Part shown: positions 1 to 23,611 of the stretch, piece after piece
Layout: every line of letters starts with the position of its first letter
Position numbering within the stretch: the first letter of the stretch is position 1
IMG/VR virus record: IMGVR_UViG_3300044613_003257
Location: 1 to 23,611 of that record
Strand: one strand, 5' to 3'
Length of the DNA: 23,611 nt
Origin: a virus
The notes under the pieces: generated by a model
The model's input: only the letters and a program-made list of their open reading frames with translations
Databases searched by the model: none
Told to the model about the DNA's origin: nothing
Made by a program: the position numbers and the translations under genes

Positions 1-631
1 CCATTTCCTGCGCGTAGGCTTCCGGCGTGAGCTTTTTGCGCATCGCGCCCAGTGCTGCCTCGCTCAGGATCCCGCTTTCGCTGGCCTTGAGCATCAGCGC
101 GTAGCTGTCCGGGTCATCCACCGCATCGCGGTAAGCGCGCCAGAACACATTGCGCCCCTTGGGCGTGCCGATCCGCGTGTGCCAGCCGTCGTAATCGAGC
201 AGGCACGGCAAAATCACGAAATCGAAAGCCGCCGGCGGAATGTCCGCATCCTCATCGCTCACCACCCCGTCAAAATACACGCCCCGCATCCGCTCGTAAT
301 TCTCGCCCGAGTAAAGCCGGATGGTCGCCCCGTTCGGGTAGGTGACTTTCAGCTCCGCCTGGTTGGCGACCGCCCCGGGAATCTTGGCCGTGTAGTCTTG
401 CAGGTAGCCCCACGCAATGTCCTTGGCCTGGTCGCGGGTGGGCGCGATGTAGGCGTAGCGCAGCGGCGGGCCGGGCCGCTGGTGGGTCAGCGCACAGGCA
501 ATGAGCTTTTGCACCACGGCCACCGTCTTGCCGGCACGGCGGTGCGCCACCAGCACACTCCACCGGTGGCGGCTTTCCAAAAACTCGCGGAAATGCGCCC
601 GCGGTTCGATTCTAATCCTGAGCGTTTCCAC
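1..631 (-). CDS. terL: Terminase large subunit, N-terminal part (runs off left edge)
   Basis: ATPase of the DNA-packaging motor that threads phage DNA through the portal into the prohead. 210 residues are visible; the C-terminal nuclease domain lies beyond the left edge. Seen: a Walker A motif HRRAGKT at residues 30-36, an adenine-binding-type YIAPTRDQAKDIAW segment at 61-74, a Walker B region ending in DE at 126-127 (the preceding residue is Ser, where a hydrophobic residue is more usual), and a coupling motif GTPKGRN at 155-161. The start is a GTG at 631. It is the only possible start, because an in-frame TGA lies two codons upstream. It overlaps the end of the small-subunit gene by 20 bases, which is typical of terS-terL pairs and suggests translational coupling. 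Confidence 0.93.
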   Translation of the reverse strand, partial: METLRIRIEPRAHFREFLESRHRWSVLVAHRRAGKTVAVVQKLIACALTHQRPGPPLRYAYIAPTRDQAKDIAWGYLQDYTAKIPGAVANQAELKVTYPNGATIRLYSGENYERMRGVYFDGVVSDEDADIPPAAFDFVILPCLLDYDGWHTRIGTPKGRNVFWRAYRDAVDDPDSYALMLKASESGILSEAALGAMRKKLTPEAYAQEM

Positions 632-1148
632 CGATCACCACTTCGTATTTCACCGTCATTTTCTCCGCCTCGTTGTAGCCGAGGATCTGCGCCAGTTGCT
701 TGGCGGCCTCGAGCTTCGGCACCATCTTGATCCGGCTGCGCACCACCTCGTCGGCCACCTCCTCGCGCGCCACCTCCTGGGCCAGATCGCTGTCCTCGTC
801 CACCCGCCCCACCGGCGTGCGCAGCACCCGGCACAAGTAGCCCACCAGCTCCCAGCGTTCCATCCGGCTGGCCTCCGCCGCCCGGCGCCGCTCGTCCTGT
901 ATGTAGCGCGAAACCTTTGGGTTTCTCAAGGCCAGGCTCGCCTGCGTATCGGCGCTCGCACCCCGGGCCGTGAACCCTGCCGCCTCATACGCGCGCCCCG
1001 CCGCCATGCCGGTCAGATACAAATCGGCAAATTTCCGCTCGCGCACGTTCAGTCCGTGCTCGTCCACCACCGGCGCACGCTTTTTCACCACTTTCTTGGC
1101 CGCCTTCTTGGCCACCTTCTTGGCAGTTACCTTTTTCGCCTTTTTCAT
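612..1148 (-). CDS. terS: Terminase small subunit
   Basis: DNA-recognition subunit of the packaging terminase, 178 residues. The core from about residue 34 has the NVRERKFADLYLTG start, a YEAAGFTARG helix-turn segment and a KVSRYIQDERR region. These are characteristic of the Terminase_2-type small subunits, in which an N-terminal HTH binds the packaging site. The first 25 residues are a lysine/alanine-rich tail resembling a histone H1 tail, which is unusual as an extension here and may add nonspecific DNA binding. The ATG start has a weak AGGATC upstream. It lies 9 bases after the winged-helix gene and overlaps terL by 20 bases. Confidence 0.88.
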   Translation of the reverse strand: MKKAKKVTAKKVAKKAAKKVVKKRAPVVDEHGLNVRERKFADLYLTGMAAGRAYEAAGFTARGASADTQASLALRNPKVSRYIQDERRRAAEASRMERWELVGYLCRVLRTPVGRVDEDSDLAQEVAREEVADEVVRSRIKMVPKLEAAKQLAQILGYNEAEKMTVKYEVVIGGNAQD

Positions 1149-7984: not shown

Positions 7985-8287
7985 TCAGTGCGCACCGCTG
8001 CCGGCCACCCCCGCGGCGATCAGCAGCCAGCACACCCATGCCCAAAACGCGATTTTTGTCGCAAACAATTTTCGGTGGTAATCCTGGCAATGGTAAGTCC
8101 ACCCGTTTGCCAAGCGGGCGTTTTCAACTTGGGCGCGCAACGCCAGCTCCATGCCGTGCAGCGTGCACAGGGCCACCAGCAACAAGGCCGCCGCGAAGCC
8201 CGCGGCCAACCACCGCGGCGCACCCAGCCATGGCATTGCCCAGCCGATCCCTCCCAACAGCAGATACGTGACACAGCGGGTTTTCAT
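7985..8287 (-). CDS. Three-helix membrane protein coupled to the integrase
   Basis: 100 residues. Three hydrophobic stretches are seen: about residues 6-22 (VTYLLLGGIGWAMPWLG), 26-44 (WLAAGFAAALLLVALCTLH) and the C-terminal AFWAWVCWLLIAAGVAG. A hydrophilic segment with YHCQDYHRKL lies before the last. ATG 8287 overlaps the integrase stop as ATGA, so it is translated with int. It converges on the repressor gene with a 19-base gap. The position, between int and the immunity region, is where phages often carry lysogenic-conversion or superinfection-exclusion genes, but function is unknown. Confidence 0.62.
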   Translation of the reverse strand: MKTRCVTYLLLGGIGWAMPWLGAPRWLAAGFAAALLLVALCTLHGMELALRAQVENARLANGWTYHCQDYHRKLFATKIAFWAWVCWLLIAAGVAGSGAH

Positions 8288-9396
8288 AAGGTTGGCATTT
8301 TTTCGAGTGCTTGGCGCATGGTGGCCATGTCCAGGTGAGTGTATTGGCGGGAGACGGCGGCACTTTCGTGACCGATGATCGCGCGCGCGATGGCGTCGGA
8401 CACCCCGGCTGCCTTGAGCAACGAGGTGGCCGTGTGGCGCAGCGAGTGGAACGAGAGCTCGAGCGTGGTGCGGCGCGTGACCCGCTGGTTTTTGCGGCTG
8501 CGGCCGATCACCGGCGCCAGCCCCACCTCCGCCAGCAAGCCGCGGAACGTATTGCTGCGGGAGCTGGCCGCCTGCCCTGCAATGCCCGGAAACACATAGG
8601 CATCCGGCGCATCCGCGGCTGGCAGTGCCAGCAGCGCGTCGCAGGCCCGGGCCACCAGCGGCAGCGCCACCAGCCGCCCGGTCTTGGCGGTGGTCAAGGT
8701 GATGGTCCCATTGGCCAGATCCACCTGCCGCCACCTCAGCACCGCCAGGTCCCCCAGCCGCTGGCCCGTGTAGAGCCCCAGCGCCACGATGGCCTGCCAC
8801 TCGCCCGTCAGGCTGGGCAGCAGCAGCTCGAGCTCCGCGGGGCGGAACTCCCGGCGCACCGTCGTTTGGCATTTCAGCGTGCCCACCTCGGCGGCCGGGT
8901 TGTGATCCAGCAGCCGCGCCTTGACGGCATCGCCCAGCGCCACCCGCAGGTGCTTGAGTTTCGAGTTGGCGGTTGGTGGGTTATTGCGCGTTGCCCAATA
9001 ATCGCGCAGCGCCGTGACCTGGCGCGCCGTCAGCGCCCCGAAGCTGCGAATATGGGCCCGCGCCAGCCAGCCGGCCACCTCATCCATCGTATTGCGGTAA
9101 GTGGAGAGCGTCTTGGGTTTCACCTCGCCCGCGCGACTCGCCGCCCACGCCTGCAGCCACGGCCCCGGCGCCGCATCCTGTGCCGGCACAAAATCCTCCG
9201 CCAGCCGATCCAGCGCCCGGCGCAGCTGGTGCGGTGTCTCGGCATGCTTGCGCCCCGCCCGCTCCGCCGCGGTCGCCACAGCCAGCGCCTCGAGCCGGTC
9301 GTGCAGCCCCGTGGAAAATTGCTTCTGCCGCCCATCCGGCAGCGTCACACACGCATACCAAAACCGCGACCCTTTACGCTGCCTTACCGAAGCCAT
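8284..9396 (-). CDS. int: Tyrosine-family phage integrase
   Basis: 370 residues. It catalyses site-specific recombination between attP and the host tRNA gene. All catalytic residues are present: R213 (GQRLGD), K238 (TAKTG), H317 and R320 (FHSLRH), H343 (GHES) and the nucleophile Y352 (SRQYTHLD). The N-terminal 50 residues (RKGSRFWYACVTLPDGRQKQFSTG) form the small arm-binding strand domain. The SAM-like core-binding domain spans about 75-165. ATG 9396 is chosen over a TTG at 9405. The gene reads away from the att core, which starts about 120 bases upstream, the usual arrangement. A membrane-protein gene is coupled downstream. Confidence 0.95.
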   Translation of the reverse strand: MASVRQRKGSRFWYACVTLPDGRQKQFSTGLHDRLEALAVATAAERAGRKHAETPHQLRRALDRLAEDFVPAQDAAPGPWLQAWAASRAGEVKPKTLSTYRNTMDEVAGWLARAHIRSFGALTARQVTALRDYWATRNNPPTANSKLKHLRVALGDAVKARLLDHNPAAEVGTLKCQTTVRREFRPAELELLLPSLTGEWQAIVALGLYTGQRLGDLAVLRWRQVDLANGTITLTTAKTGRLVALPLVARACDALLALPAADAPDAYVFPGIAGQAASSRSNTFRGLLAEVGLAPVIGRSRKNQRVTRRTTLELSFHSLRHTATSLLKAAGVSDAIARAIIGHESAAVSRQYTHLDMATMRQALEKMPTL

Positions 9397-9436
9397 GCCT
9401 GACAATAGACTTCCAATAAATCATGTCAATCCATGC

Positions 9437-11300: not shown

Positions 11301-13631
11301 TCATGGCTCGGTGGCGATGATTTGCACGACCCCCGAAGGAAATTTCGCGCAAAACTCCATTTTGGATGATCCGTTGAGGCGCATAAAAATGATGCCGTGT
11401 TCGGCTGCTACCTCGCCATCAGTTGGATCAGCCCCGGTGGATCGTTTCATCCTGATTCTGAGCGGCCACGAGGACGATTGCGTGATCTTCCCGGTTATAG
11501 TCGATCCACTGGAAACCGCGAATGACATCCAAGTTACAGTGGTCGCCTCGGGAAACCATTTTAGTTCGCCGTCTTGTCCGGCGATGGTGCCGGAAAATGA
11601 GCAATGCAGACTGTTAGCCGGAACAAAAGATGATGTGCTACCGAGCTGTATGGAGTTAAATGCGTTACCCCCCGGCAGGTAAATCCCACCTTGATGCTCA
11701 TTGTTTTGTAATCCTTGGCCAATCCAGATTTTACTATTTGTAGTGTTGTTTTGCCGCATGATGGCGCGGCGGGAAATTCGCACTATGCTGCCACCGTTGC
11801 GCCCGATTGCAGCCTCTACGATTTGCTCGATGAGATAATTCCGCATCTGGTATCCTGCGGTTGTCATATGGACATCTACGCCTCCCACTAGATATCCATC
11901 AGCAACGCCCGCAGCCCAACTGTGGAACATGCGTTTTGTCGAGATGTAGGATTCGTTATTACGAGCCGCCCATGCGTCCATCGTCGCGTCCTGATCGCCG
12001 TAAGTAGTGTAGTAGGAATCCGTTTGCGGAGGTGGGCCAATGAGCAGGAAATCACAAGTGCTGTGTCCGGCTTTGATTTTATCGTAAAGCGTGTCATATG
12101 TGCCGCCCTCATCCCATCCGGCAGGTGTGTCGAGCCATGATCCCATGACAATATCGGGAAGCAACCCAGCAACCACGCCGGACACGGTAGCGGCGGGACA
12201 GGTGGAAATGAATGCGTTATCAAGCCCGCCTTGGTCGCATCGGCTGATTACATATCCGCCGTAGTTTTCCAGCCAGAATCCGCAGCCTATGATTTTTGCA
12301 GTTGCGCCGCCGCCGCCCGATCCCGCCACCACGTTTGTGACTCGCACCTTGACGGTCTCAAGTGCGGCGTTGGTGATGGTGTAAGTCAGATAATTACCCC
12401 CTGCTGACGCAGAATATGTGCTGATCCCGGATGCAGCCACCGTCCAGCTCCCTGATCCGAGTTGATATTCCAAATCGAATGTCGCTCCGGTCGGGCCAGT
12501 AATAAAACCGACCCCTATCCGGTTTGCGCGGAAATCAATCGTGCCCGCTGTCGATGGCGCGTATAGGATTGTGGCTCCGATAGATACGTTGCGATACCTC
12601 CCTTGCAGCCATTCGTTACTCTCGACCACCACCGGAGCAGTGCCTGCCGTCACCGATGACCGTTGATCGAGTTTATAGCCGACCAAATCCTGTCCGGGCA
12701 AGGGGGACTCCTCGGCAATCCTGCTAGATACCGAATCTCCGAAAACCATGATGTTGATGGCGGTGGCAGGCACTCCAGAAGCTGCCGACTCTCGGGCAGC
12801 GAGCTTGATTCTGGTGTTTTTGAGCTGCACCTTTTTTACGATGTCAGCATCTATGATCTTCGCCGCCGCTCGCGTCGCCGCCGGATCGGTGGCGATGGCG
12901 GCGTTGACGGCGGTGTTGGTGACATCGGCCAAAACAGCACTGGCGGCCGCTGCGCTGGCACTGGCACTAGCAGCGCTGGCTGAATTGCTGGCACTGGCGG
13001 CGCTGGCACTGGCGGCACTGGCTGAACTGCTGGCGCTGCTGGCGCTGGCGCTGGCTGAACTGCTGGCGCTGCTGGCGCTGGCGGCACTGGCGCTGGCGGC
13101 GGACACGGCGGCCTGCGCGTCTCCCAGCACCTCGCTTGCAAGAGCCGCCTTGGACAATTCTTCCATGGCCCCAGTGTTGTTATTGAATGCCAGCAGTTTG
13201 CCTTTGCGCTGGGCGGGGGCTGACAAGGTGGTGGGGTTGCCGGCTGGTTCCGCGCCGGGGAAGGCGATGGTCGCGCGAGCGTCCAGATCGCGGATCATGC
13301 GCACCAGGGCGTCGAGCTGGGCCTCGATCTGGATGCTGGGCAGGCGCTCGTTGTAGGTGAGATCCAGAGCTTGCGCGATGGCGGTTTTGCGCAAAAAGGT
13401 AACGGTGCTGCCGGCTGGGGGTGCTGTCTGGAACACAATGGTGGCAGTGCCACCCAAATTGGAAAACGTGTAATCGACTCCCGCGACTTGGGCGGTCACT
13501 GCGCCTGCGGCCGTGGTGATCCATACGCCGATTTCACTGGCCCCCCCGGCTACGAGCAGCGTGGCAAAGGTGGTGTTGCTGCCATTGCCTGCGGCTTGGT
13601 ATTTGACATTTTCGTTGGTTCCTACAGCCAT
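11301..13631 (-). CDS. Tail fibre with T7-fibre-like N-terminus, Ala/Ser stalk and SGNH hydrolase domain
   Basis: 776 residues. Residues 1-120 (NENVKYQAAGNGSNTTFATLL through ALDLTYNERLPSIQIEAQLDALVRMIRDLDA) resemble the virion-attachment domain of T7-type fibres. About 170-230 is an Ala/Ser repeat, probably a trimeric stalk. An SGNH/GDSL hydrolase follows: block I FGDSVSS with S300 as nucleophile, and DVHMTTAGY with D586 and H588. About 150 residues of beta-rich sequence sit between block I and the later blocks. The C-terminal 150 residues are beta-rich and may bind receptor. It probably deacylates host surface polysaccharide during attachment. I chose ATG 13631; a TTG at 13667, 16 bases after the previous gene with GGGGGAAA before it, is an alternative. 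Confidence 0.82.
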   Translation of the reverse strand: MAVGTNENVKYQAAGNGSNTTFATLLVAGGASEIGVWITTAAGAVTAQVAGVDYTFSNLGGTATIVFQTAPPAGSTVTFLRKTAIAQALDLTYNERLPSIQIEAQLDALVRMIRDLDARATIAFPGAEPAGNPTTLSAPAQRKGKLLAFNNNTGAMEELSKAALASEVLGDAQAAVSAASASAASASSASSSASASASSASSSASAASASAASASNSASAASASASAAAASAVLADVTNTAVNAAIATDPAATRAAAKIIDADIVKKVQLKNTRIKLAARESAASGVPATAINIMVFGDSVSSRIAEESPLPGQDLVGYKLDQRSSVTAGTAPVVVESNEWLQGRYRNVSIGATILYAPSTAGTIDFRANRIGVGFITGPTGATFDLEYQLGSGSWTVAASGISTYSASAGGNYLTYTITNAALETVKVRVTNVVAGSGGGGATAKIIGCGFWLENYGGYVISRCDQGGLDNAFISTCPAATVSGVVAGLLPDIVMGSWLDTPAGWDEGGTYDTLYDKIKAGHSTCDFLLIGPPPQTDSYYTTYGDQDATMDAWAARNNESYISTKRMFHSWAAGVADGYLVGGVDVHMTTAGYQMRNYLIEQIVEAAIGRNGGSIVRISRRAIMRQNNTTNSKIWIGQGLQNNEHQGGIYLPGGNAFNSIQLGSTSSFVPANSLHCSFSGTIAGQDGELKWFPEATTVTWMSFAVSSGSTITGKITQSSSWPLRIRMKRSTGADPTDGEVAAEHGIIFMRLNGSSKMEFCAKFPSGVVQIIATEP
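12935..13115 (-). repeat. Ala/Ser codon repeat in the tail-fibre stalk
   Basis: GCTGGCACTGGCG-type units recur on the plus strand. On the coding strand they give runs of SAS, SSAS and SAASAS. The repeat is degenerate at the third codon base, which indicates selection on the protein and not recent slippage. Confidence 0.85.
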
Positions 13632-13683
13632 GCCGGAACACTGCCGCAGGAGGCCCACCAGCCTCAATTTCCCCCAAAGGAAA

Positions 13684-13992
13684 TCAGATGGTGCCGTCGT
13701 GCAGCAGCCGGTAGGTGGCGCCGCCGATGGTCAGCAACACATATTGACTGCCGGATCCTGCGCTCCCGGTGCCGCCGGTGGTGCCGTCGCTGGTGGCCAC
13801 GCCGGGGCCGGTGTAGTAAGGCAGCGCCGCCCATGCCGTGGTGCCGTCGCCCACTTTGATGTATCCGGTATCGCTTTCGATGCCCATTTGTCCGGCTGCC
13901 AGCGTCGGATCTGCCGCCGTCCATTCCGCGGCGGTGTTGACCAGGGGCGTTCCAAATGGCGCGGGCGGGGTGATGCTACGGCTCAGGGACAT
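13684..13992 (-). CDS. Short tail/fibre-associated structural protein
   Basis: 102 residues. The central segment AAEWTAADPTLAAGQMGIESDTGYIKVGDGTTAWAALPYY is the widespread phage motif (AxGExGxETDTGxxKxGDGxTxWxxLxY) found at the N-terminus of tail fibres, baseplate proteins and the major tropism determinant. It forms a small beta-rich attachment domain. A Gly/Ser/Thr linker and a short beta segment (YVLLTIGGATYRLLHDGTI) follow. ATG 13992 lies 4 bases after the stop of the giant gene. It is a likely adaptor or decoration protein made just before the fibre. Confidence 0.7.
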   Translation of the reverse strand: MSLSRSITPPAPFGTPLVNTAAEWTAADPTLAAGQMGIESDTGYIKVGDGTTAWAALPYYTGPGVATSDGTTGGTGSAGSGSQYVLLTIGGATYRLLHDGTI

Positions 13993-13996
13993 TGGC

Positions 13997-16900
13997 TCAG
14001 TCTTCGGTGGTGTTTTTGTAAATGGCCTCAAGATCGCGCGCAATGTGGCTCCACGACGCGGCGGCGGCTGCGGTGGGGCTGGCCACGCCCACGCCCATCA
14101 AAATGCTTTCCGCGTCCTTGATGGCGTCTTCCCAAGATCCCTTGCCGGTGGCGAGCTTGCGGATGGTGCCCGCGGCCTTGGACGGGCCGGAAATGAGGGT
14201 GCTGCCAGGCATGTATTCGCCCGCGCCGGCATAAATCATGTTTTCGATTTCCTTGCCGACGATGGGCAAGCCACCGATGGGGCCGGAGAGCGCCATGAGC
14301 GCCAGCCGCGTGGGATCCCAGTTTGTTTCATCGAACACCTCATCGTCCTCGCCATCGTCGCGCAGATCGCGCACGGCGGCGCGCACCACCGCGGCGAGCA
14401 GGCCGGAAACCGTCCAGGTAATGGCCGCGGCGCGGAAGCGCTCGAGGCCGGTCTTCTGCATCAGGCCGTAGGCACTGAGGGCGATTTTCTGGCGCGGTTC
14501 GGACGCGAAGGCCCACATCATGCGGAATGCCGGATTGGTGGCTGTGACCTCGATGAGCGAGCGGGCCCCGGCGCGCATGGGCTGGGCCACCTGGTCGGTG
14601 AGGAGAATGGTTACCTCTTGGGCCCACTGCTCGGGACTGGGCATGCCGCGGTCCTTGGCCAGCTTGAGCTGGTAATCGTAGATGATGGCGTAGGTGCCGG
14701 CGGTGAAGAGCGCGTCGGCGCCGGATATCAGGCTGCCGAGGCGGGCGGTTTCGTGCTTGAGGCGGCTGGGCGGGCCGCTGGCCAGTCCCTGCATGGCCTG
14801 CTGCACGGCGGGCGGCATCTGAGCCAGGCGGCGCTGGATGTAGTCGGAGCGGATCGCCTTGCCCCAGCCGAGCTGGCCGGTGGTGAGTTTTGCCAGGCGC
14901 GTAAGGTAGCTGCCCACCGGCATCTGGTAGGTGGCGGCGCCGAGCTGCACGCTCTGGATGGCCAGCACGCTCACGCGGCCGACGAGCGCCATTTGGGAAA
15001 TCCGGTCCAGCCCGCGCTGGAACCAGCCGGAAACGGCCAGGTGCGCCGCGGCATCGCGGGTGCCACCCTGGGCGAAGTAGTCGGTCCATGCGCGCAGGAT
15101 GTTGAGCGCTTCCTTGCCGGCCTTGGCCTCGATGCTGTTCCCCAGCTCGCGGTTGTTGACAATGGCCATCAGCTCGCTGGACAGCTGGCCGTAGGCGATA
15201 AAGTGCTCCATCTGCTTCACGTGGGCCACGTAATGCTGCAGCGCGTCCATGCGCTGCGGCTCGGCCACGGCGGAATGGCTGCGGTTCTTGAGGCTGCCGG
15301 GCGTAAGCCCCGGGCCCTGCATGGTGCCGGATACCGGATCTGCCATCTGGCCGCCGGGGGCGTGCTGCGGTGCCACCGCGATGGGGCTGTAGTCCTTGTG
15401 GCGCGGCATGTTCACTCCGTAGAGGTCGGAAAACACCGCGTTGATGCGGTCATACTCGGCGCCGTAGTTCTCGCGCAGATGCAGGCGGATGGCCTTGGCC
15501 TCCTTGGAAAGCTGGCGCTCGATGGCCGCCACGTCCTCTTCGCGCCAGTGCCAGTCCGAGGTCACGGTGGTGGAGCCGTCGGCGTTTTCCTCAATCTGCC
15601 CTTCCATGTGGCGCCGCCCATCGGCCTGGGCCCACCACAGCGTGTAGGATACCGCCTCCATTTCGGTGGCAGTCTGCTTGCGGCCTTGCCAGTCAATCCA
15701 CTCCACCCGGCGCTCGGTGGCCAGCTTGTAGCGGAGTTTTTCGCCGGCCAGCGGATTGCCGGCCAGATCGTTGAGCAGCGCCTCCACGGCATTGTGCGTG
15801 CGCTGGATGGCATTCTCCTTGGCATTGGCGGCGCGCAGTTCCCACTCGGCAAACGAGCGGGCGGTGGCGCTGCCTTCGCCAAACACCAGCCCGAGCATCT
15901 GATCGAAGCTGAAGATAGAGAGCAGTGCCTCGCGGGTGCGGCCCAGCTTGGTGCCGCGGGCCTTGATCTCCGCATTCACCCGCTCCATGCGCTCCCCGGC
16001 CCGGCCGGTGTCGTGTTTGAGATCCGCGCGGCGGCGGGTGATGCGCTCGCGCTTTTGGGCGGCTTTGATTTGGGCCTGCAGGTAGCCACCGGCATAGGCG
16101 CTGGTCGCCTCCGCCAAGGCCATTTCCCGCCGGGCGGCATCCGCCTTGCGCCAGTCGCCCACCAAGCGCACCAGATTGGCCTCCAAGGTCAGGTGGGCGG
16201 CCTGCTCTGCGGTGGTGGCCTCGGCCTCGGCCAGGCTTTCCAGGCGGGTGGCCTCGGCCTCGGTTTCCGCGGCGTCCAGGAACATGGCATCCTCGATGGA
16301 CCGAAACAAGTCATGCACGTTGGCGCCGATCTTGCCCTTGGGCCGCTTGCCCGCCTCATCGCGCTCGGGGCGCGTGCGCTCGAGCAGTTCGCGGAATTCG
16401 CGGTCGAGCGTCTCGCGCATCCATTTTTCCAGCTCGCGGTCGCTTTTGGCGATGGTGTCTTTGAGAATTGCCAGCCGCGCCTCCTCACTGCCAGCCCGGG
16501 CAATGTCCATGATCCCGCCGATTTTGGCCCGCACCGGCGGCGGCAGCGCGCGCAGGATCGCCTGCATCGATGCCAGGGCGCGCAGGATTTCCTGCTTGGG
16601 CGAGTAGTTGGCCGCCTGCCCCTCGCCAGCCTGCCGCAGCCAGTCATTGGCCTCCTGCTTGGCGGTGGTGCGCGCGGCGCGCAGCTGCTGCTGCACTTGG
16701 GCCAGTTGCTCTTTCATGCCGGCCACTTGCGCCTGCTCGCTGTGAAGCGCCTGCCAGAGGGTGTCCACATCGGGGCTGTTGATGAGCCCCTCGTCGTAGA
16801 GCTCTTGGGCCGCCTGGTCGGGCGTGAGAGTGCCGCCAAAGATCGAGCGGGAAAGCCCGTCGCTGCCGTCCCACTCGCCGCCCTTGTAGTCCTCGCCAAA

Positions 16901-19900
16901 CAACTCCGCGCGGTGCTTCATGGCCGCGCTGCGGCTCATCAGGCGGCCGCGCAGCGGGCTGTCAGGATCGGCCAGCGCGGCGTGCACCGGCTGGCTCTTG
17001 ATGCGCACCAGATCCTCGTTGCTCAATAGCTCCCAGTGCCGCGCATACACGTCGTTTTCCAGCTCCTCGCGCCGCACCGCTTCGCGCATGGCCGCCTCCT
17101 TGAGCAGGCTCTTGCGCATGCGCTTGCTGCCGGCCACCAGCTCGAAGCGCTCGGCATCCAGCTTGAGCCGCTCAAACTCGCGGGAAATGCGCTGGAATAT
17201 CTCCGCCCGGCGACGCGGGTTGCGCACCCGGTCGAGCGCATTCATGCGCATCAGGTCGAGGCTGCGCGATGGGGCCAAAGATGCCGCCCCGGAATCCGCC
17301 GGGGGGGACTGGTTAAAAGGATGAGCGATCAAATCAGGCTTTGGACTAACTCCACCATATAGCCAAGGGGCTGACTTTGAAGCATTGGAAAAAAAGAATT
17401 TTTCACTCAGCTTGCGCGGGCGGTCTTCCCATTCACCGAGTTTTTTGACCAGCGTTTCATAAGTCGTAAGTGATCCGATTGGCCTGGCCGTTGCCGCGTC
17501 CAGCACAGGTTCCCCATCGGTGCCAGTCGTGATTCTTTCCCCTTTTACCAGGTATGCGTATTTTGCAGGAAACTCGAAATATCTGGAAACGCTGATACCA
17601 CCTTCATTCGGGTCCGTTTCTGTGTCGAAATCATTCAATCCATGATTTTTGCTTCCATGGTGAATTCCTTCCTTCAAATATTTGAAATCATCCTTTGAAT
17701 TTGTCACCCTGATATAAGTGTCTGGACCTAGCTTTTCGCGGCCGATCACTTCTTGGAAAAGTCGGAATAAATGATTTTCAATTCTTTGCGGCCAGCGGTG
17801 AGAACTTTCCGATATTACAGCGACCATTCCGTCCCCGTGCCTGAATGCATGCTCTTTCACTCCATAATCTTCAACAATAGCGATGGCATATTCCCCATTT
17901 GCTTGTAGCGGAATTACTTCCTTGATTCGTTGGTGCAGCTTGCTTTCCGGCAGGGCCGCGTCACCGATGTTGGCCCCGCCGGGCTGGTTGGGATTGATGC
18001 CGCCAAGTTGCCCGGCCGCCCCGGGCCTGCCAAGCGAAAAGCTTTGCAGACTCATGCCGGCAAATATGCTTGCCTCGTCGGACTTGGAAAGTATGCGACC
18101 AGATCCGCCTTTTTTCGCCTCATCGCCGATCCGTTCATACAAGGTGCCTGCGCGGATTCGCTCGTAAGTGATGCGCGCGGCGTCTTCGTAGTCGGCTGGA
18201 GCGGAATTTTTGGTGGAAGATCCCAGCATCTTGAACAAATCCTTCTCATTGTACCACAGCGCGGCCTGCATGTCCGCTATGGTAATGTCGATGCCGGCAC
18301 GCTTGAGCATCTTCTGGGCCTTCTCCATCACAGCCTGCTGAAAATCACGCTCGAGGTCGGTGCGCGGTGCCTCAAGCACGTTCTCGCGGTTTTCTACCCA
18401 GTTTTTTGCGGCCCGGCGCAAGTCGCTTTTCTGTTTGTATTGACCCTTGCGAAATACCTCTTCAAGACGCGAGGCAAGTGCCAGCATCTGCTCGGGATCA
18501 TTGATCAGACTGTCAAATTCCTCGGGCGTCATCTCCTTGAGTTCATCGCCATTCTCCCATAGTACTGGCTGGCCTTTCTCGAATTTTTTGGGTCCAGTAT
18601 CTTTGGTGAATTCCGCCACTGCCGCATCGCGCATTGCCAGATATTGCGTGGCTTCTAGTTCTGGAGAATGCACGAATGACCATCCTAAAATGCGGTTCCA
18701 TGTCCGGCTGAACCAAAGGTCGGCCGTCAGGGTGGTATAATCGCCGTGCAAATTGTTGATAAACGAGCCAATCTTGGGCCCAAAGACCATCCAGCCTGTC
18801 ACTTTTTGGGTCGATTTGCCTTCAACAGAAAGCGGCTTCCCATTGAACCACAGTTTCTGATTCTTGCGCAAATGCGCGTTGATGTTGCCAACGGTATCTT
18901 TCTTATTGAGAAACTTACGAAGCTCCGCGTAAGTATTCTGGTCTAGCAGGGCCTGCAGCTTGGCAAAGTTGTTTTCGATTGCCACGGTCTTGCTACCGAA
19001 TGACTCGGACAGCGGAGCCACGGCTTCCAAAATGGTCATGCCTCCTTTTCTCCAGCGAGCATACACCCTTGTGGACATCACACTGTTGTCGGTGACCGGA
19101 TTGCCCTGCGATGCGATGCCAAGCATAGCGTCAAAAACAAGTGCTTTGTCGATATCGTATCCGGCACCTCCTTCCTCAAGTTCTGCAAACATCCGCGAGT
19201 AGATTGCCTTTGCCGCTTTGAGGGCACGGTCATACCACCCGATCGCAGACCTCAGTCCATGCTCCTTGGCATTGTTCACATGCCACTGCACCTCGTCGTA
19301 AATCGTTTGCGCGATGAGCTTCTTCGCTCTTTCGGAGTAGTCTCCTGGAGATATCAATCCATGCTTGGCTGACCAGTTTTGCAAGGCCCATACCACATTG
19401 GTGACAGAGGCCTTAAAGACTCCTTTCTTGGTGAACCGCCCTTGGACTTCGAGCTTTTCCTGCCCGGTCATTATCCTGGCCGCGCTCTTGAGACTCCCGT
19501 GTTTGGGGTAGAGTGCGTCCCTGACGATCTCCGCCTGAGTATCGTTCAGTCCGAATCGCTTGGCGAAGAGGTCGATGTTGAAGCGATAACCCTCTGATCC
19601 GACTGCTTTGGCATACGGGGCGACAAACGAATCGATGACTCGTTCCAGTAAGGCGAGTCCTTCGGCAGTGGTTTGAATCCATGCTTGGCCCGACCCTCCT
19701 CGAGGCTCTGGCGAGAAATCAGTTTCCGTTTCATTGAGGTCTGAAGATACGAGTTCACTGTAAGCATTCGGCAAGCCGACCGCCTGCTGGATGTCGCGGA
19801 TCGCTTGCTCGAAATCGTTTTTCCCCGCTTCGTCCCCAAAATATAAAAACTTTGCGGACTTACCGTCTGCGGTGGTGGCGAAATCAATGCCTCGCTTCTG

Positions 19901-22900
19901 CGACTCCGCGAAGATGGCATTTACCTGCTCCTTTGTCAATCTCTTGGGTTGTCCTAAAAAATATGCAGGGATGCCCTCGGTGAGGCTTTCGTTGGGTCTC
20001 CCCACGATGGTGGCGTCCTGCGCCCAGGCAAAGCCGAAAAGAGCCCCTATACCGGCGGCCTGCTCATCGCTGAGGCTCTTTGCGGTCAGCTCGAAGGAGG
20101 GCTCCAGATTGCCCAGCCAAGAACCGATCGTCGGCCGCACTTGAAGGCCTTCAACCCCAAACAAATCTTTTATCAGAGCTTTTGCCTTGGCCGCGTTAAG
20201 AATTTTGTTCGTCGCAGCGCCCACGCGCTCGAGACGCGGCTTACTCTGTGTGGGATGTGTGATCGGGCCGGGTGTCGTTCTGCTGGCAATTGAGCGCTGC
20301 TCTTCCTCGATCTCCCGGATACGCTCAGCATTCTCCTCGGGATTGTTCTGCAGTCCGGCCAGTTCTTTGCGCAAAGCGCGCTCTTGCTTTTCTGTCTGGG
20401 CAATGCCACCTGGCGTCCAGCCGTATTCCCCAGGCCGCGCGCCGATCGTCACCGTCGATCGGCCAAGCGAAAACGCCAGATCGGGCTGCAGATCCATATC
20501 CGGCAGCCGCGCAAAGCGTGCCTGGCCGGTGTCGTTGCGCAGGGCCAGCACGGTGCCGTCCGGGGCGATTGGCACGTAATGGTGCTGGTCAGCGCCGCTG
20601 TCGCGCTCGCTGGCATACCATTCCAGCTGAAAAATATCCACCAGCAGGTCCATGGTATCGACCGGATCGATGCCGCGGAAAAAGTCGCTGTTGAGCGTGT
20701 CGCGCAGCCAGTTCCAAAAGCCCGTTACGCTGGGGTCGGTGGGGTTGGCGCCGGGCTCGATGAGGGCGGGGCGGATCCAGTCTTCGGCCAGTCCCCGGCC
20801 TTCGTAGGCTTCCCATGCACCCAATACGGCGGCGTGTCTTCCGTCTTTGGAAAGTTGATTCCAAAATTCTCCTCCACCATCGGGTATTTGAGCGGGCGCT
20901 TGGTTTTGGCTGAGGTCGATTTCATGGCCGTCTGGATACAGCACCCCGGTGTGGCTGGTCAAACTTGGCACGGGGCCGAATTGTGACAAGCGGAATTCCG
21001 GGTAGCGCATGCCGCTGCGTGCAATGGAAAACGGTATATCATCCGCGTCCACGTCGTAGTCGGAATTCAAGGCCGCGGCGAAGGCCTCGGGCGAAAGCGG
21101 ATCGGCAATGCGGGCGGCCTCCTGGGCGGTTTGCCGGTTGAAATCGTCTTGCACGTCGAGCCCCAGCAGCTTGGCGAGAAAGGCGTCGTAGCTGTCGGCA
21201 TCGAATTTCCCCTCGCGCTCGGCTTTTTTGATTGCGAGGGCGCGGGCCATCGCTTGGCCAAAGTGGGCGCGCACGCTTTCGATGAAGGCGGAGAACTTGC
21301 GGGTGGCCTCCGGTGCCAGGCGGGCCAGTGCGGTGAGGTTGCGGGTGACAAAGCCGCTGGGGACATTGCCGGCACCGGGACGCTGCGGCATCCGGCGCTT
21401 GGTGCCGCCAGAGCGGCTGCGCAGGATTTCCATTTCCATTACCTCGGAAATCGCCTCGTCGATCATTTCTTCGGTGATCTGCTCGTCGGTGATGCCCTCG
21501 GGCAGGAAGGAAAGGCGCTCGCCCTCGCGGGTGCGCTTGCCGGCCAGCACAGCGTCAATCGCGCGGACGAATGAAACCTCCTCCTCGCGGCTCAGTTGGC
21601 CGGCTTCCCGCAGGGCCCGGCGCCGGCCGTGGGTGAATTCGTGAAAGACGGTCAGCACGCTGCCGCCTTGGAAAATTCGGTTCACGGTCTGCCGCAGGTT
21701 GTCGCGTATCTGGGACTCGCTCCAGCCGTTGACGGTGTAGGAAATTTCCCCGGTGCCGCCGGCCGCCTGTTCTTTCAGTTCGACTTGCTTGGCGAAGCGG
21801 GCGGCCATTTCCGGGCGCTCGGCCTCAAGCAGCGCGCGGTCCATCACGGTGCCCAGTTCAAGGCGCGTCTCCTGATTCGGATCGAGCTTCTGCACGAAAT
21901 CCGCGCTTTCGAGCAGGGATTTCATGTAGGCCACGGCATCGGCATCCAGATCGGCAAGGAAATCAGAATGCGCTTGGGCCATGGTCCACGCGGCGCCCAT
22001 GCTCGGGGCAGTGCCCACGGTTTCCTCAGTGCGGCCGTCCAGCACAGTGTATCCTTCGCGTCCCGCCACGATGATGGGCAGATCGCCGGACGCGCGCAGT
22101 TGGTTGGCAGCCTCACGGCGGGCGCGCTCCCTGACGGCCAGCTCCTCCGCCGCGGCCTTGGCCTCGGGGCTGTTGGCGTCGCGGTTTGGCCAGCTGTTAT
22201 TGATTTCGGTGTTGGCGCTGTCGTATCCTGGCGCGTTTTTAATCCGGTCGATCGCCTCGGGCTGCAGCCCCAGCGCGCGCAGCTCCAGCTCGCTGGCCTC
22301 GCGGAACGCATTGGCGCGGGCCTCTGCATTGATGCCGCCTGCCGCCCCAAACATAGACAGCAGCACCATCGTGCCGGCGTATTCGGGATAATTCGCCCAA
22401 GCCCCCTTGAATTCCTGCACCAAGTCCACATCGGGCAGTGCTGGGTTCAATGCCGCGGCAATGTCATGCACAATGGATTCCGTGAAATCCTCGCCCACCT
22501 CGAGGGTGGCTTCCACCCCAGTGATGGCACCGGTGCGGGCAGCGAAGCGCAGCCCGCGGTTCACAATCTTGTCGCCTATCTGATTGAGCGCCTTGTTGGC
22601 CCAAGGGATTTTGCGCGCCCATATTCCGAACTGGATTTTATTGAGCACAAATTGCGGCACCATCACGAATGGTGCCACCGTGTTGGCGGCCGTCATTGCG
22701 TCTGCCTCGGTAAGCCCGTGATCGCGGAATTTCAAATACGCGCTTTCCCTCGCGCTGCCGTGCAGCATGGCAGCCATTGCCACCTGCCCCACCACCGGCA
22801 CAAAAAACGTCATGCTGGTTGCCGTCACCCCCGGGGTTTTCTGCAATATCCCCTGCCCCTGGTAATCGATCGGATCGTAGTCCGAGCGCAGGATCCGCCG

Positions 22901-23611
22901 GATTTCCATGGCCCGCCCTTCCTGCCGGTTCATGTCTGCCGCGTCCGCTTGCCTTTGCTGTTCCATGCCGCGCATCGTGCCGGCATTCACGCCCAGCGGC
23001 CCGCCGGTGCCCAGTGGAGTGCCCGCCATCACTCGGCCGCCCACGCTTTCGCCAATGTTGCGGCTGTAGTCTTCCATCACGCGCAGCAAATCCTTGCGCA
23101 TCCCGGCCAGAAACCGCTCTTGCTCTGCATCGGGCAGGGTAGTGACCCGCAGCCGCAGCGACTCCAAAAATTCCCCAAACAATTCATCCGGCACCTGCCC
23201 GATCAGTTCCAATGGCAAATTGGCACCGTTCACCGCGGCCAGCCAGGTAGCCTCCAGCGCCTCGCCAATCGGCTCCTGGCGCTCTGCAAGCTGCCGCCGC
23301 ACTTCGGTAAAACTTTCGGCATAGTCACCCACCCGCTCCATATCAAATCCCGGGTGCTGCATCGCCGTCTTGAGCCAATCCCCAAAAGTCCCGGCATGCT
23401 CACTTGGCATGGCCGAGGCCCGCGCCGCGTGAGTCACCAGCCCCCCAATCAGCTCCCGCTCATCCACGCGGAATTGCGCCGCGGCTTGCCCTTGCTGGAA
23501 AAATGCCTCTTCGCTCTCCGCGCCCTGCCCCTTGAATTCCTCCTCGGCCACCCGCAGCCGCAGCAGGTAGCGGCCCAGCTCATCGGCCGGCGGATCCTCG
23601 CCTTGGTTGTA
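13997..23611 (-). CDS. Giant polyvalent-type phage protein, at least 3204 residues (N-terminus beyond window)
   Basis: One uninterrupted frame of 9.6 kb. A GTG at 23551 (residue 1 here) could start it, but 20 further codons to the window edge are open and read as plausible protein (DELGRYLLRLRVAEEEF), so it is treated as partial. Seen: hydrophobic segments near 247-264, 290-310 and 395-413; a zincin-like HEFTH at 637-641; FSIARS, FSLGRS and FSLGRP linkers near 840, 1026 and 1836; a GPKIGSFINNLHGD segment near 1585-1600; an AT-rich patch near 1880-2070 with HHGS (about 1963) and GISVSRYF; Glu/Ala/Arg coiled coils about 2270-2480; and a C-terminal 330 residues (QMALVGRVSVLAIQSVQLG and following) typical of large polyvalent phage proteins. 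Such proteins are thought to be packaged and injected with the DNA. Exact enzymatic roles are inference. Confidence 0.82.
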   Translation of the reverse strand, partial: YNQGEDPPADELGRYLLRLRVAEEEFKGQGAESEEAFFQQGQAAAQFRVDERELIGGLVTHAARASAMPSEHAGTFGDWLKTAMQHPGFDMERVGDYAESFTEVRRQLAERQEPIGEALEATWLAAVNGANLPLELIGQVPDELFGEFLESLRLRVTTLPDAEQERFLAGMRKDLLRVMEDYSRNIGESVGGRVMAGTPLGTGGPLGVNAGTMRGMEQQRQADAADMNRQEGRAMEIRRILRSDYDPIDYQGQGILQKTPGVTATSMTFFVPVVGQVAMAAMLHGSARESAYLKFRDHGLTEADAMTAANTVAPFVMVPQFVLNKIQFGIWARKIPWANKALNQIGDKIVNRGLRFAARTGAITGVEATLEVGEDFTESIVHDIAAALNPALPDVDLVQEFKGAWANYPEYAGTMVLLSMFGAAGGINAEARANAFREASELELRALGLQPEAIDRIKNAPGYDSANTEINNSWPNRDANSPEAKAAAEELAVRERARREAANQLRASGDLPIIVAGREGYTVLDGRTEETVGTAPSMGAAWTMAQAHSDFLADLDADAVAYMKSLLESADFVQKLDPNQETRLELGTVMDRALLEAERPEMAARFAKQVELKEQAAGGTGEISYTVNGWSESQIRDNLRQTVNRIFQGGSVLTVFHEFTHGRRRALREAGQLSREEEVSFVRAIDAVLAGKRTREGERLSFLPEGITDEQITEEMIDEAISEVMEMEILRSRSGGTKRRMPQRPGAGNVPSGFVTRNLTALARLAPEATRKFSAFIESVRAHFGQAMARALAIKKAEREGKFDADSYDAFLAKLLGLDVQDDFNRQTAQEAARIADPLSPEAFAAALNSDYDVDADDIPFSIARSGMRYPEFRLSQFGPVPSLTSHTGVLYPDGHEIDLSQNQAPAQIPDGGGEFWNQLSKDGRHAAVLGAWEAYEGRGLAEDWIRPALIEPGANPTDPSVTGFWNWLRDTLNSDFFRGIDPVDTMDLLVDIFQLEWYASERDSGADQHHYVPIAPDGTVLALRNDTGQARFARLPDMDLQPDLAFSLGRSTVTIGARPGEYGWTPGGIAQTEKQERALRKELAGLQNNPEENAERIREIEEEQRSIASRTTPGPITHPTQSKPRLERVGAATNKILNAAKAKALIKDLFGVEGLQVRPTIGSWLGNLEPSFELTAKSLSDEQAAGIGALFGFAWAQDATIVGRPNESLTEGIPAYFLGQPKRLTKEQVNAIFAESQKRGIDFATTADGKSAKFLYFGDEAGKNDFEQAIRDIQQAVGLPNAYSELVSSDLNETETDFSPEPRGGSGQAWIQTTAEGLALLERVIDSFVAPYAKAVGSEGYRFNIDLFAKRFGLNDTQAEIVRDALYPKHGSLKSAARIMTGQEKLEVQGRFTKKGVFKASVTNVVWALQNWSAKHGLISPGDYSERAKKLIAQTIYDEVQWHVNNAKEHGLRSAIGWYDRALKAAKAIYSRMFAELEEGGAGYDIDKALVFDAMLGIASQGNPVTDNSVMSTRVYARWRKGGMTILEAVAPLSESFGSKTVAIENNFAKLQALLDQNTYAELRKFLNKKDTVGNINAHLRKNQKLWFNGKPLSVEGKSTQKVTGWMVFGPKIGSFINNLHGDYTTLTADLWFSRTWNRILGWSFVHSPELEATQYLAMRDAAVAEFTKDTGPKKFEKGQPVLWENGDELKEMTPEEFDSLINDPEQMLALASRLEEVFRKGQYKQKSDLRRAAKNWVENRENVLEAPRTDLERDFQQAVMEKAQKMLKRAGIDITIADMQAALWYNEKDLFKMLGSSTKNSAPADYEDAARITYERIRAGTLYERIGDEAKKGGSGRILSKSDEASIFAGMSLQSFSLGRPGAAGQLGGINPNQPGGANIGDAALPESKLHQRIKEVIPLQANGEYAIAIVEDYGVKEHAFRHGDGMVAVISESSHRWPQRIENHLFRLFQEVIGREKLGPDTYIRVTNSKDDFKYLKEGIHHGSKNHGLNDFDTETDPNEGGISVSRYFEFPAKYAYLVKGERITTGTDGEPVLDAATARPIGSLTTYETLVKKLGEWEDRPRKLSEKFFFSNASKSAPWLYGGVSPKPDLIAHPFNQSPPADSGAASLAPSRSLDLMRMNALDRVRNPRRRAEIFQRISREFERLKLDAERFELVAGSKRMRKSLLKEAAMREAVRREELENDVYARHWELLSNEDLVRIKSQPVHAALADPDSPLRGRLMSRSAAMKHRAELFGEDYKGGEWDGSDGLSRSIFGGTLTPDQAAQELYDEGLINSPDVDTLWQALHSEQAQVAGMKEQLAQVQQQLRAARTTAKQEANDWLRQAGEGQAANYSPKQEILRALASMQAILRALPPPVRAKIGGIMDIARAGSEEARLAILKDTIAKSDRELEKWMRETLDREFRELLERTRPERDEAGKRPKGKIGANVHDLFRSIEDAMFLDAAETEAEATRLESLAEAEATTAEQAAHLTLEANLVRLVGDWRKADAARREMALAEATSAYAGGYLQAQIKAAQKRERITRRRADLKHDTGRAGERMERVNAEIKARGTKLGRTREALLSIFSFDQMLGLVFGEGSATARSFAEWELRAANAKENAIQRTHNAVEALLNDLAGNPLAGEKLRYKLATERRVEWIDWQGRKQTATEMEAVSYTLWWAQADGRRHMEGQIEENADGSTTVTSDWHWREEDVAAIERQLSKEAKAIRLHLRENYGAEYDRINAVFSDLYGVNMPRHKDYSPIAVAPQHAPGGQMADPVSGTMQGPGLTPGSLKNRSHSAVAEPQRMDALQHYVAHVKQMEHFIAYGQLSSELMAIVNNRELGNSIEAKAGKEALNILRAWTDYFAQGGTRDAAAHLAVSGWFQRGLDRISQMALVGRVSVLAIQSVQLGAATYQMPVGSYLTRLAKLTTGQLGWGKAIRSDYIQRRLAQMPPAVQQAMQGLASGPPSRLKHETARLGSLISGADALFTAGTYAIIYDYQLKLAKDRGMPSPEQWAQEVTILLTDQVAQPMRAGARSLIEVTATNPAFRMMWAFASEPRQKIALSAYGLMQKTGLERFRAAAITWTVSGLLAAVVRAAVRDLRDDGEDDEVFDETNWDPTRLALMALSGPIGGLPIVGKEIENMIYAGAGEYMPGSTLISGPSKAAGTIRKLATGKGSWEDAIKDAESILMGVGVASPTAAAAASWSHIARDLEAIYKNTTED

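Follow-up and report, generated by a model that had tools for sequence, protein, structure and literature searches.

The window analysed here, a stretch of 23,611 bp, encodes on its minus strand a giant protein that is probably the polyvalent ejection protein of a temperate podovirus, in which constant cores surround exchangeable candidate effector cassettes bordered by a short peptide tag. This modular design of constant cores and tag-delimited cassettes has apparently not been described before. The preliminary description of this DNA missed the cassette design with its tagged borders, which is the main point of this report.

Extent and architecture of the giant protein

The minus-strand frame runs from 23611 to 13997 through 3204 codons without a stop and reaches the right edge of the window, as first described. 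As the window is the entire IMG/VR record, which is classed as linear, this edge is the end of the contig. In the relatives L002 and L003, whose giants (P0002, 3545 aa, and P0003, 3532 aa) are full-length and 97-99% identical to the window protein in the shared parts, the ATG start lies 100 codons upstream of the first codon of the window. The GTG at 23551 is therefore not the start, and the earlier statement that the true protein is longer than the starts inside the window imply was right. Judged from these relatives, the full protein would comprise about 3300 aa, with about 100 N-terminal residues, or about 300 bp, beyond the edge. The gene is real, since its product is conserved, down to about 33% identity, in many phages, with a constant place in the morphogenesis operon. 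The plus strand holds an open frame of 1063 codons opposite the C-terminal core (window 13838-17029); it is probably a shadow of GC-rich coding, and nothing marks it as a gene.

An all-against-all comparison revealed two constant blocks, the N-core and the C-core, and a variable middle. This middle is a row of cassettes, each opening with [APS]-F-S-[IL]-[GA]. The features of the protein are as follows.

13997..23611, minus strand: giant protein, probably of the polyvalent ejection type, 3204 residues and stop (open frame, full-length relatives)
21032..23611, minus strand: N-core, residues 1-860 (all-against-all homology)
21629..21643, minus strand: HEFTH, metallopeptidase-like HEXXH, residues 657-661 (motif search, family alignment; fold not confirmed)
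21017..21031, minus strand: border tag 1, FSIAR preceded by P, residues 861-865, end of the N-core (F and S invariant in 10 relatives; predicted disordered)
20474..21031, minus strand: cassette A, residues 861-1046, candidate effector (homologue in L112)
20459..20473, minus strand: border tag 2, FSLGR preceded by A, residues 1047-1051 (end of DNA identity to L002 and L003)
18041..20473, minus strand: cassette B, residues 1047-1857, with the GWY/GPKIG domain at residues 1395-1857 (18041-19429) (similarity to DC33, ctEw122 and ctQRb9; model)
18026..18040, minus strand: border tag 3, FSLGR preceded by S, residues 1858-1862 (renewed DNA identity to L002)
17285..18040, minus strand: cassette C, residues 1858-2109, candidate effector (replaced in L003)
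14000..17284, minus strand: C-core, residues 2110-3204, most conserved block (33-61% identity in relatives)
14372-14428, minus strand: hydrophobic segment, residues 3062-3080 (hydropathy)

The C-core corresponds to the conserved C-terminal region noticed before. Membrane segments were proposed at the same time; a single segment, at residues 3062-3080, passes a strict hydropathy cut. The N-core before about residue 475 is itself exchanged relative to L002 and L003, with DNA breaks at nucleotides 126 and 1425 of the reverse complement. Cassette A is homologous to the last cassette of L112 (38% identity).

When the cassettes of 12 relatives were delimited from tag to tag, they formed 14 groups, several with a single member, and within the groups most pairs can be aligned over their whole length, starting at residue 1; very short spacer cassettes join the RadC group only via a shared stretch. 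Their order is free: the RadC cassette opens the row in L012 and L109 but takes the second place in L002, the fourth in L112 and the fifth in L016. In L270, residues 1765-2020 and 2021-2231 are adjacent cassettes with near-identical starts (FSIGPAQDAEYLELAKDPEKNRSILQQMVD); read from their sequences, they are a recent tandem duplication of an ART-type cassette.

Cassette exchange and the border tag

Comparison with L002 locates one exchange precisely. DNA identity of about 97% ends inside the FSLGR codons at 20459-20473 and resumes at the FSLGR codons at 18026-18040, and the 811-residue stretch between these tags is replaced in L002 by RadC, ART-like and PRTase-like cassettes. L002 and L003, with flanks 97-99% identical, both carry cassettes of these three types in this slot. 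A second exchange, relative to L003, extends from residue ~1888 to 2098, where an ART-like cassette is found instead, and its joint lies away from the tag. The unit that is replaced, duplicated or moved to another place in the row runs from one tag to the next. Within one protein, the tags are encoded by different synonymous codons, which differ at most of the third positions; the tag is therefore conserved as a peptide and not as DNA, and a DNA repeat is ruled out.

In family members bearing HExxH, 28 of 83 homology breaks lie at most 12 residues from FS[IL][GA], compared with a mean of 2.4 after rotation, and rotated breaks never placed more than 9 at the tag in 2000 trials. Seven of eight classes of control tripeptides were at chance, the other being [FY]N[IL] (3 vs 0.4 expected), and an unbiased ranking of k-mers at breaks gave FS, FSL, PFS, SLG and FSI at the top. 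An earlier run had placed 38 of 193 breaks at the tag (5.0 expected) and 33 of 37 tags at a break. In 19 held-out relatives, which were fetched after the tag hypothesis had been formed, there are 18 tags where composition predicts 3.1, and 14 of the 18 fall at breaks. At position -1, which played no part in the search, 34 of 36 residues are Ala, Pro or Ser. The first tag lies in a stretch that is predicted to be disordered. In the capsid and other structural proteins checked, FS[IL]G is absent save for one occurrence (FSLGLDKI) in a gene upstream of the L010 giant (2155 frame). We found no published description of the tag, which is weak evidence as the literature was searched mostly without subscription papers; the text of Iyer et al. 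2017 (PMC5512222) mentions neither a linker nor a border motif.

Genome context and relation to polyvalent proteins

The genes of the window include terminase, integrase, Dam methylase, IstB/DnaC-like ATPase and amidase genes and a gene at the tail-fibre position. As an integrase is among them, the phage is probably temperate. The flanking features used here are as follows.

2-631, minus strand: terminase large subunit, partial (PHROGs)
612-1148, minus strand: terminase small subunit (PHROGs)
8284..9405, minus strand: tyrosine integrase (Pfam)
11301..13667, minus strand: downstream gene at the tail-fibre position, weak GDSL-lipase match (position as in L002)

L002 extends further upstream than the window and exhibits the order major head protein, gp11-like protein, gp12-like tail tube protein, internal virion protein, gp15-like protein with a lysozyme, giant and tail fibre. 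This corresponds to the T7 order gp11-gp12-gp14-gp15-gp16-fibre, and a closely similar order is found in phages DC33, ctEw122, ctQRb9 and vir555. The giant lies among the late virion genes, where polyvalent proteins are expected, and tail genes follow immediately downstream of it, in agreement with the first reading of the window. It is this gene order that points to a virion protein, as had been proposed. The 1222-aa gp12-like protein of L002 (L002:3444-7112) holds an inserted CBM_5_12 carbohydrate-binding module. It is precisely this part (about L002 3740-4861) that is different in L003, which makes a tail gene the site of a second module exchange. Limnohabitans phage DC33 (L005, PQ492659.1) is filed under the Inoviridae, which are filamentous, whereas its gene order and its giant are those of a podovirus.

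The giant shares with T7 gp16 the position after gp14- and gp15-like genes and a hydrophobic segment near the C terminus. T7 gp16 has 1318 residues compared with about 3300, and it lacks the cassettes; in phages of the window type, the peptidoglycan hydrolase is in the gp15-like protein, unlike in T7 gp16. No gp16-family similarity was found for the window protein among PHROG, Pfam or PDB sequence matches. We retain the view that the giant works like gp16 and do not claim homology to it.

The window protein has no significant match in Pfam, PHROGs, NCBIfam, PADLOC or PDB sequences, and its direct annotation from these five databases was dropped; the earlier remark that its exact domain set looked unassigned was correct. 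None of the published polyvalent set (LPD, ART-PolyVal, PBECR) is detected in the window copy by Pfam. Relatives sharing the C-core, in contrast, exhibit ART-PolyVal, PBECR5, LPD3 and RadC above the Pfam cut-offs: RadC (4e-27), PBECR5 (7e-20) and LPD3 (2e-10) in L280, ART-PolyVal in L270 (5e-21) and in L015. In L002 and L003, RadC is above the cut-off and the ART-PolyVal-like and PRTase-like domains are below it, and L112 has RadC with weaker ART and PRTase. Disparate activities are therefore combined in one chain within the family (RadC, ART and PRTase in L002 and L112; RadC, PBECR5 and LPD3 in L280). The cassettes of the window are mutually distinct and have no assigned activity. The PRTase cassette of L002 (L002:15506-16297) also weakly matches the XopC type III secretion effector family (E 1.5e-5) and the ShosT defence protein (E 0.007); the PRTase core common to these proteins is the probable reason.

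The model of residues 1395-1857 (pLDDT 87, pTM 0.79) is all-helical. Its fold matches 'Large polyvalent protein associated' and ART-PolyVal giants in BFVD (TM 0.68, E 2e-15); in a structure search of the PDB, nothing similar was found (best E 0.2, TM ~0.1). This domain (18041-19429; loci L188-L267), which is marked by conserved GWY and GPKIG..NL.GD motifs, is present in at least 200 viral contigs. It has no Pfam or PDB match and is a candidate for a new domain family.

As relatives carry ART-PolyVal, RadC, PBECR5 and LPD3 and the predicted fold of residues 1395-1857 matches polyvalent giants, the assignment of the window protein to the polyvalent proteins of Iyer et al. (PMC5512222) is supported; this part of the preliminary description holds through the relatives and the model, and not through significant matches of the window's own sequence. 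Both are giant multi-domain proteins among virion genes with an HEXXH domain, and the relatives share ART-PolyVal, RadC, PRTase, PBECR5 and LPD3 with the published set. The window family adds the constant N- and C-cores around a row of tag-delimited cassettes, and the window copy is without a Pfam domain. Polyvalent proteins of the N4 virion RNA polymerase type are likewise giant injected-type virion proteins with an HEXXH domain (PMC5512222), but no N4-type RNA polymerase domain was detected in the window protein by Pfam, PHROGs and NCBIfam scans. The giants of DC33, ctEw122 and ctQRb9 share position, size (2792-3209 aa), HEXXH, ART-PolyVal and the GPKIG domain of cassette B, and LPD22 is present in those of DC33 and ctQRb9. 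In contrast, they lack FS[IL]G border tags, their domain order differs, and their C-core is only faintly similar to that of the window protein (hhalign E 4e-4, probability 34%). In Dickeya phage LIMEstone1, a small protein with an ART-PolyVal match (L027:5941-6399) is annotated as 'confirmed structural protein', which places an ART of this type in virions.

Taken with the family, the gene order suggests that the giant is carried in the virion, in the position of T7 gp16, and is delivered into the host together with the DNA. The N-core and C-core form the constant part, which would serve packaging and envelope crossing, and up to ~8 interchangeable cassettes lie between them, with effector roles suggested by the domain names.

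Possible roles of the border tag

The proposal of 2017 was that polyvalent proteins are cleaved into individual effectors, at sites that it left open, with HEXXH domains suggested as the cutters by Iyer et al. (PMC5512222). Our preferred but tentative reading takes the tag for an exposed processing site, where cutting, whether it precedes or follows injection, would release the cassettes one by one. The HEFTH motif and a downstream conserved Glu are present in the family alignment, and the position of the first tag, beside the HEXXH domain in a probably disordered stretch, fits cutting. A metallopeptidase role is suggested by the motif noted initially, which is present at residues 657-661; a structure search of the PDB for a zincin or metallopeptidase fold gave no match.

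In the held-out set, the coupling between tag and HExxH looked near perfect (5/6 vs 0/13). Nevertheless, the co-occurrence of HExxH and FSIG is clade-bound, with three changes on the tree. The HExxH of L016 is degenerate (LEETIH) and six tags are kept, and that of L015 is also degenerate (VEETVE), with one full tag. A clade without HExxH keeps YSI/FSI at its borders (15 YSI vs 1.9 expected; 14 of 108 breaks vs 2.7). Strict coupling therefore fails as proof, and cleavage by the HExxH domain alone is unsupported; cutting by the neighbouring HExxH domain appears attractive but weakened. A virion-maturation protease is not supported as the cutter: the 'protease' PHROG match (L002:20-1000) is by eye more like a scaffold, and the capsid and other structural proteins checked are nearly tag-free. 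If the tag is a processing site, the HExxH domain could do the cutting in some members, and the others would need a different protease.

A hinge or docking strand is nearly as likely as a processing site. The tag would then stay uncut and act as a structural joint, either a strand or hinge for unfolding, tail passage and refolding or a docking element on the gp15-like tunnel. We regard this as somewhat doubtful: T7 gp16 exits the capsid, crosses the envelope and must unfold and refold (PMC8954989), and the tag is retained by relatives whose HExxH is lost or missing, but the first tag lies in a predicted-disordered stretch and not in a strand, and the constraint to A/P/S at position -1 resembles a recognition sequence. 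It is improbable that the tag is a mere recombination joint, a shared coding stretch for crossover with no role in the protein. The DNA breakpoints of near-identical phages fall on the tag and L270 holds tandem cassette copies, as such a joint would predict; against this, most third codon positions differ, the peptide is kept where the flanks are unrelated, position -1 is also constrained, and some real swaps lie away from the tag. An ordinary structural or tape-like internal protein with no injected enzymes, which the gp16 position and cassettes A-C without an assigned enzyme would allow, is very improbable given the ART-, RadC-, PRTase- and PBECR5-type domains in the same slot of close relatives and a rapid domain exchange that resembles an effector arsenal.

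The tag may extend beyond the family. Among 28 non-redundant giants of unrelated phages, about half have FSR, FSIG or FSLG ahead of the PRTase cassette (FS 14 vs 2.6 expected, Bonferroni 3e-4), and in 88 giants FS is the top of 400 dipeptides at homology breaks. With the window family left out, the signal is weaker but present (FS[RIL] 27 vs 13.7, z 4). An independent set, collected from the GPKIG domain, gave FS[RIL] 12 vs 5 (z 3.1), a level that single rotations also reached, and FS was not its top dipeptide. In both sets outside the window family, FSR reaches 2.4-2.5 times its expectation from composition. Distant members of a RadC set showed no enrichment, because their domain starts, being extrapolated, cannot be relied on. 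Since borders taken from homology ends are blurred, the true effect outside the family may be larger, or limited to some groups. The tag is not universal in polyvalent proteins: DC33, ctEw122, BL94 and vir555 are without it, and phage P1 DdrB and DarA, taken as processed yardsticks, exhibit no clear tag. A search of genome contigs for relatives of the N-core found none. That [FY]-S-[I/L/R] is a general border signal in unrelated polyvalent families, as FSIG in this family, YSI in its sister clade and FSR in others, marking the cuts that free injected effectors and defining the cassettes that are traded, is conceivable and remains speculative.

If the tag is a processing site, it gives an exact cut-site prediction for polyvalent proteins. 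The tag rule offers natural boundaries along which giant phage proteins of obscure content can be divided for expression and screening, and the trading of cassettes between near-identical genomes becomes visible. The layout suggests how such proteins swap their parts and may release them.
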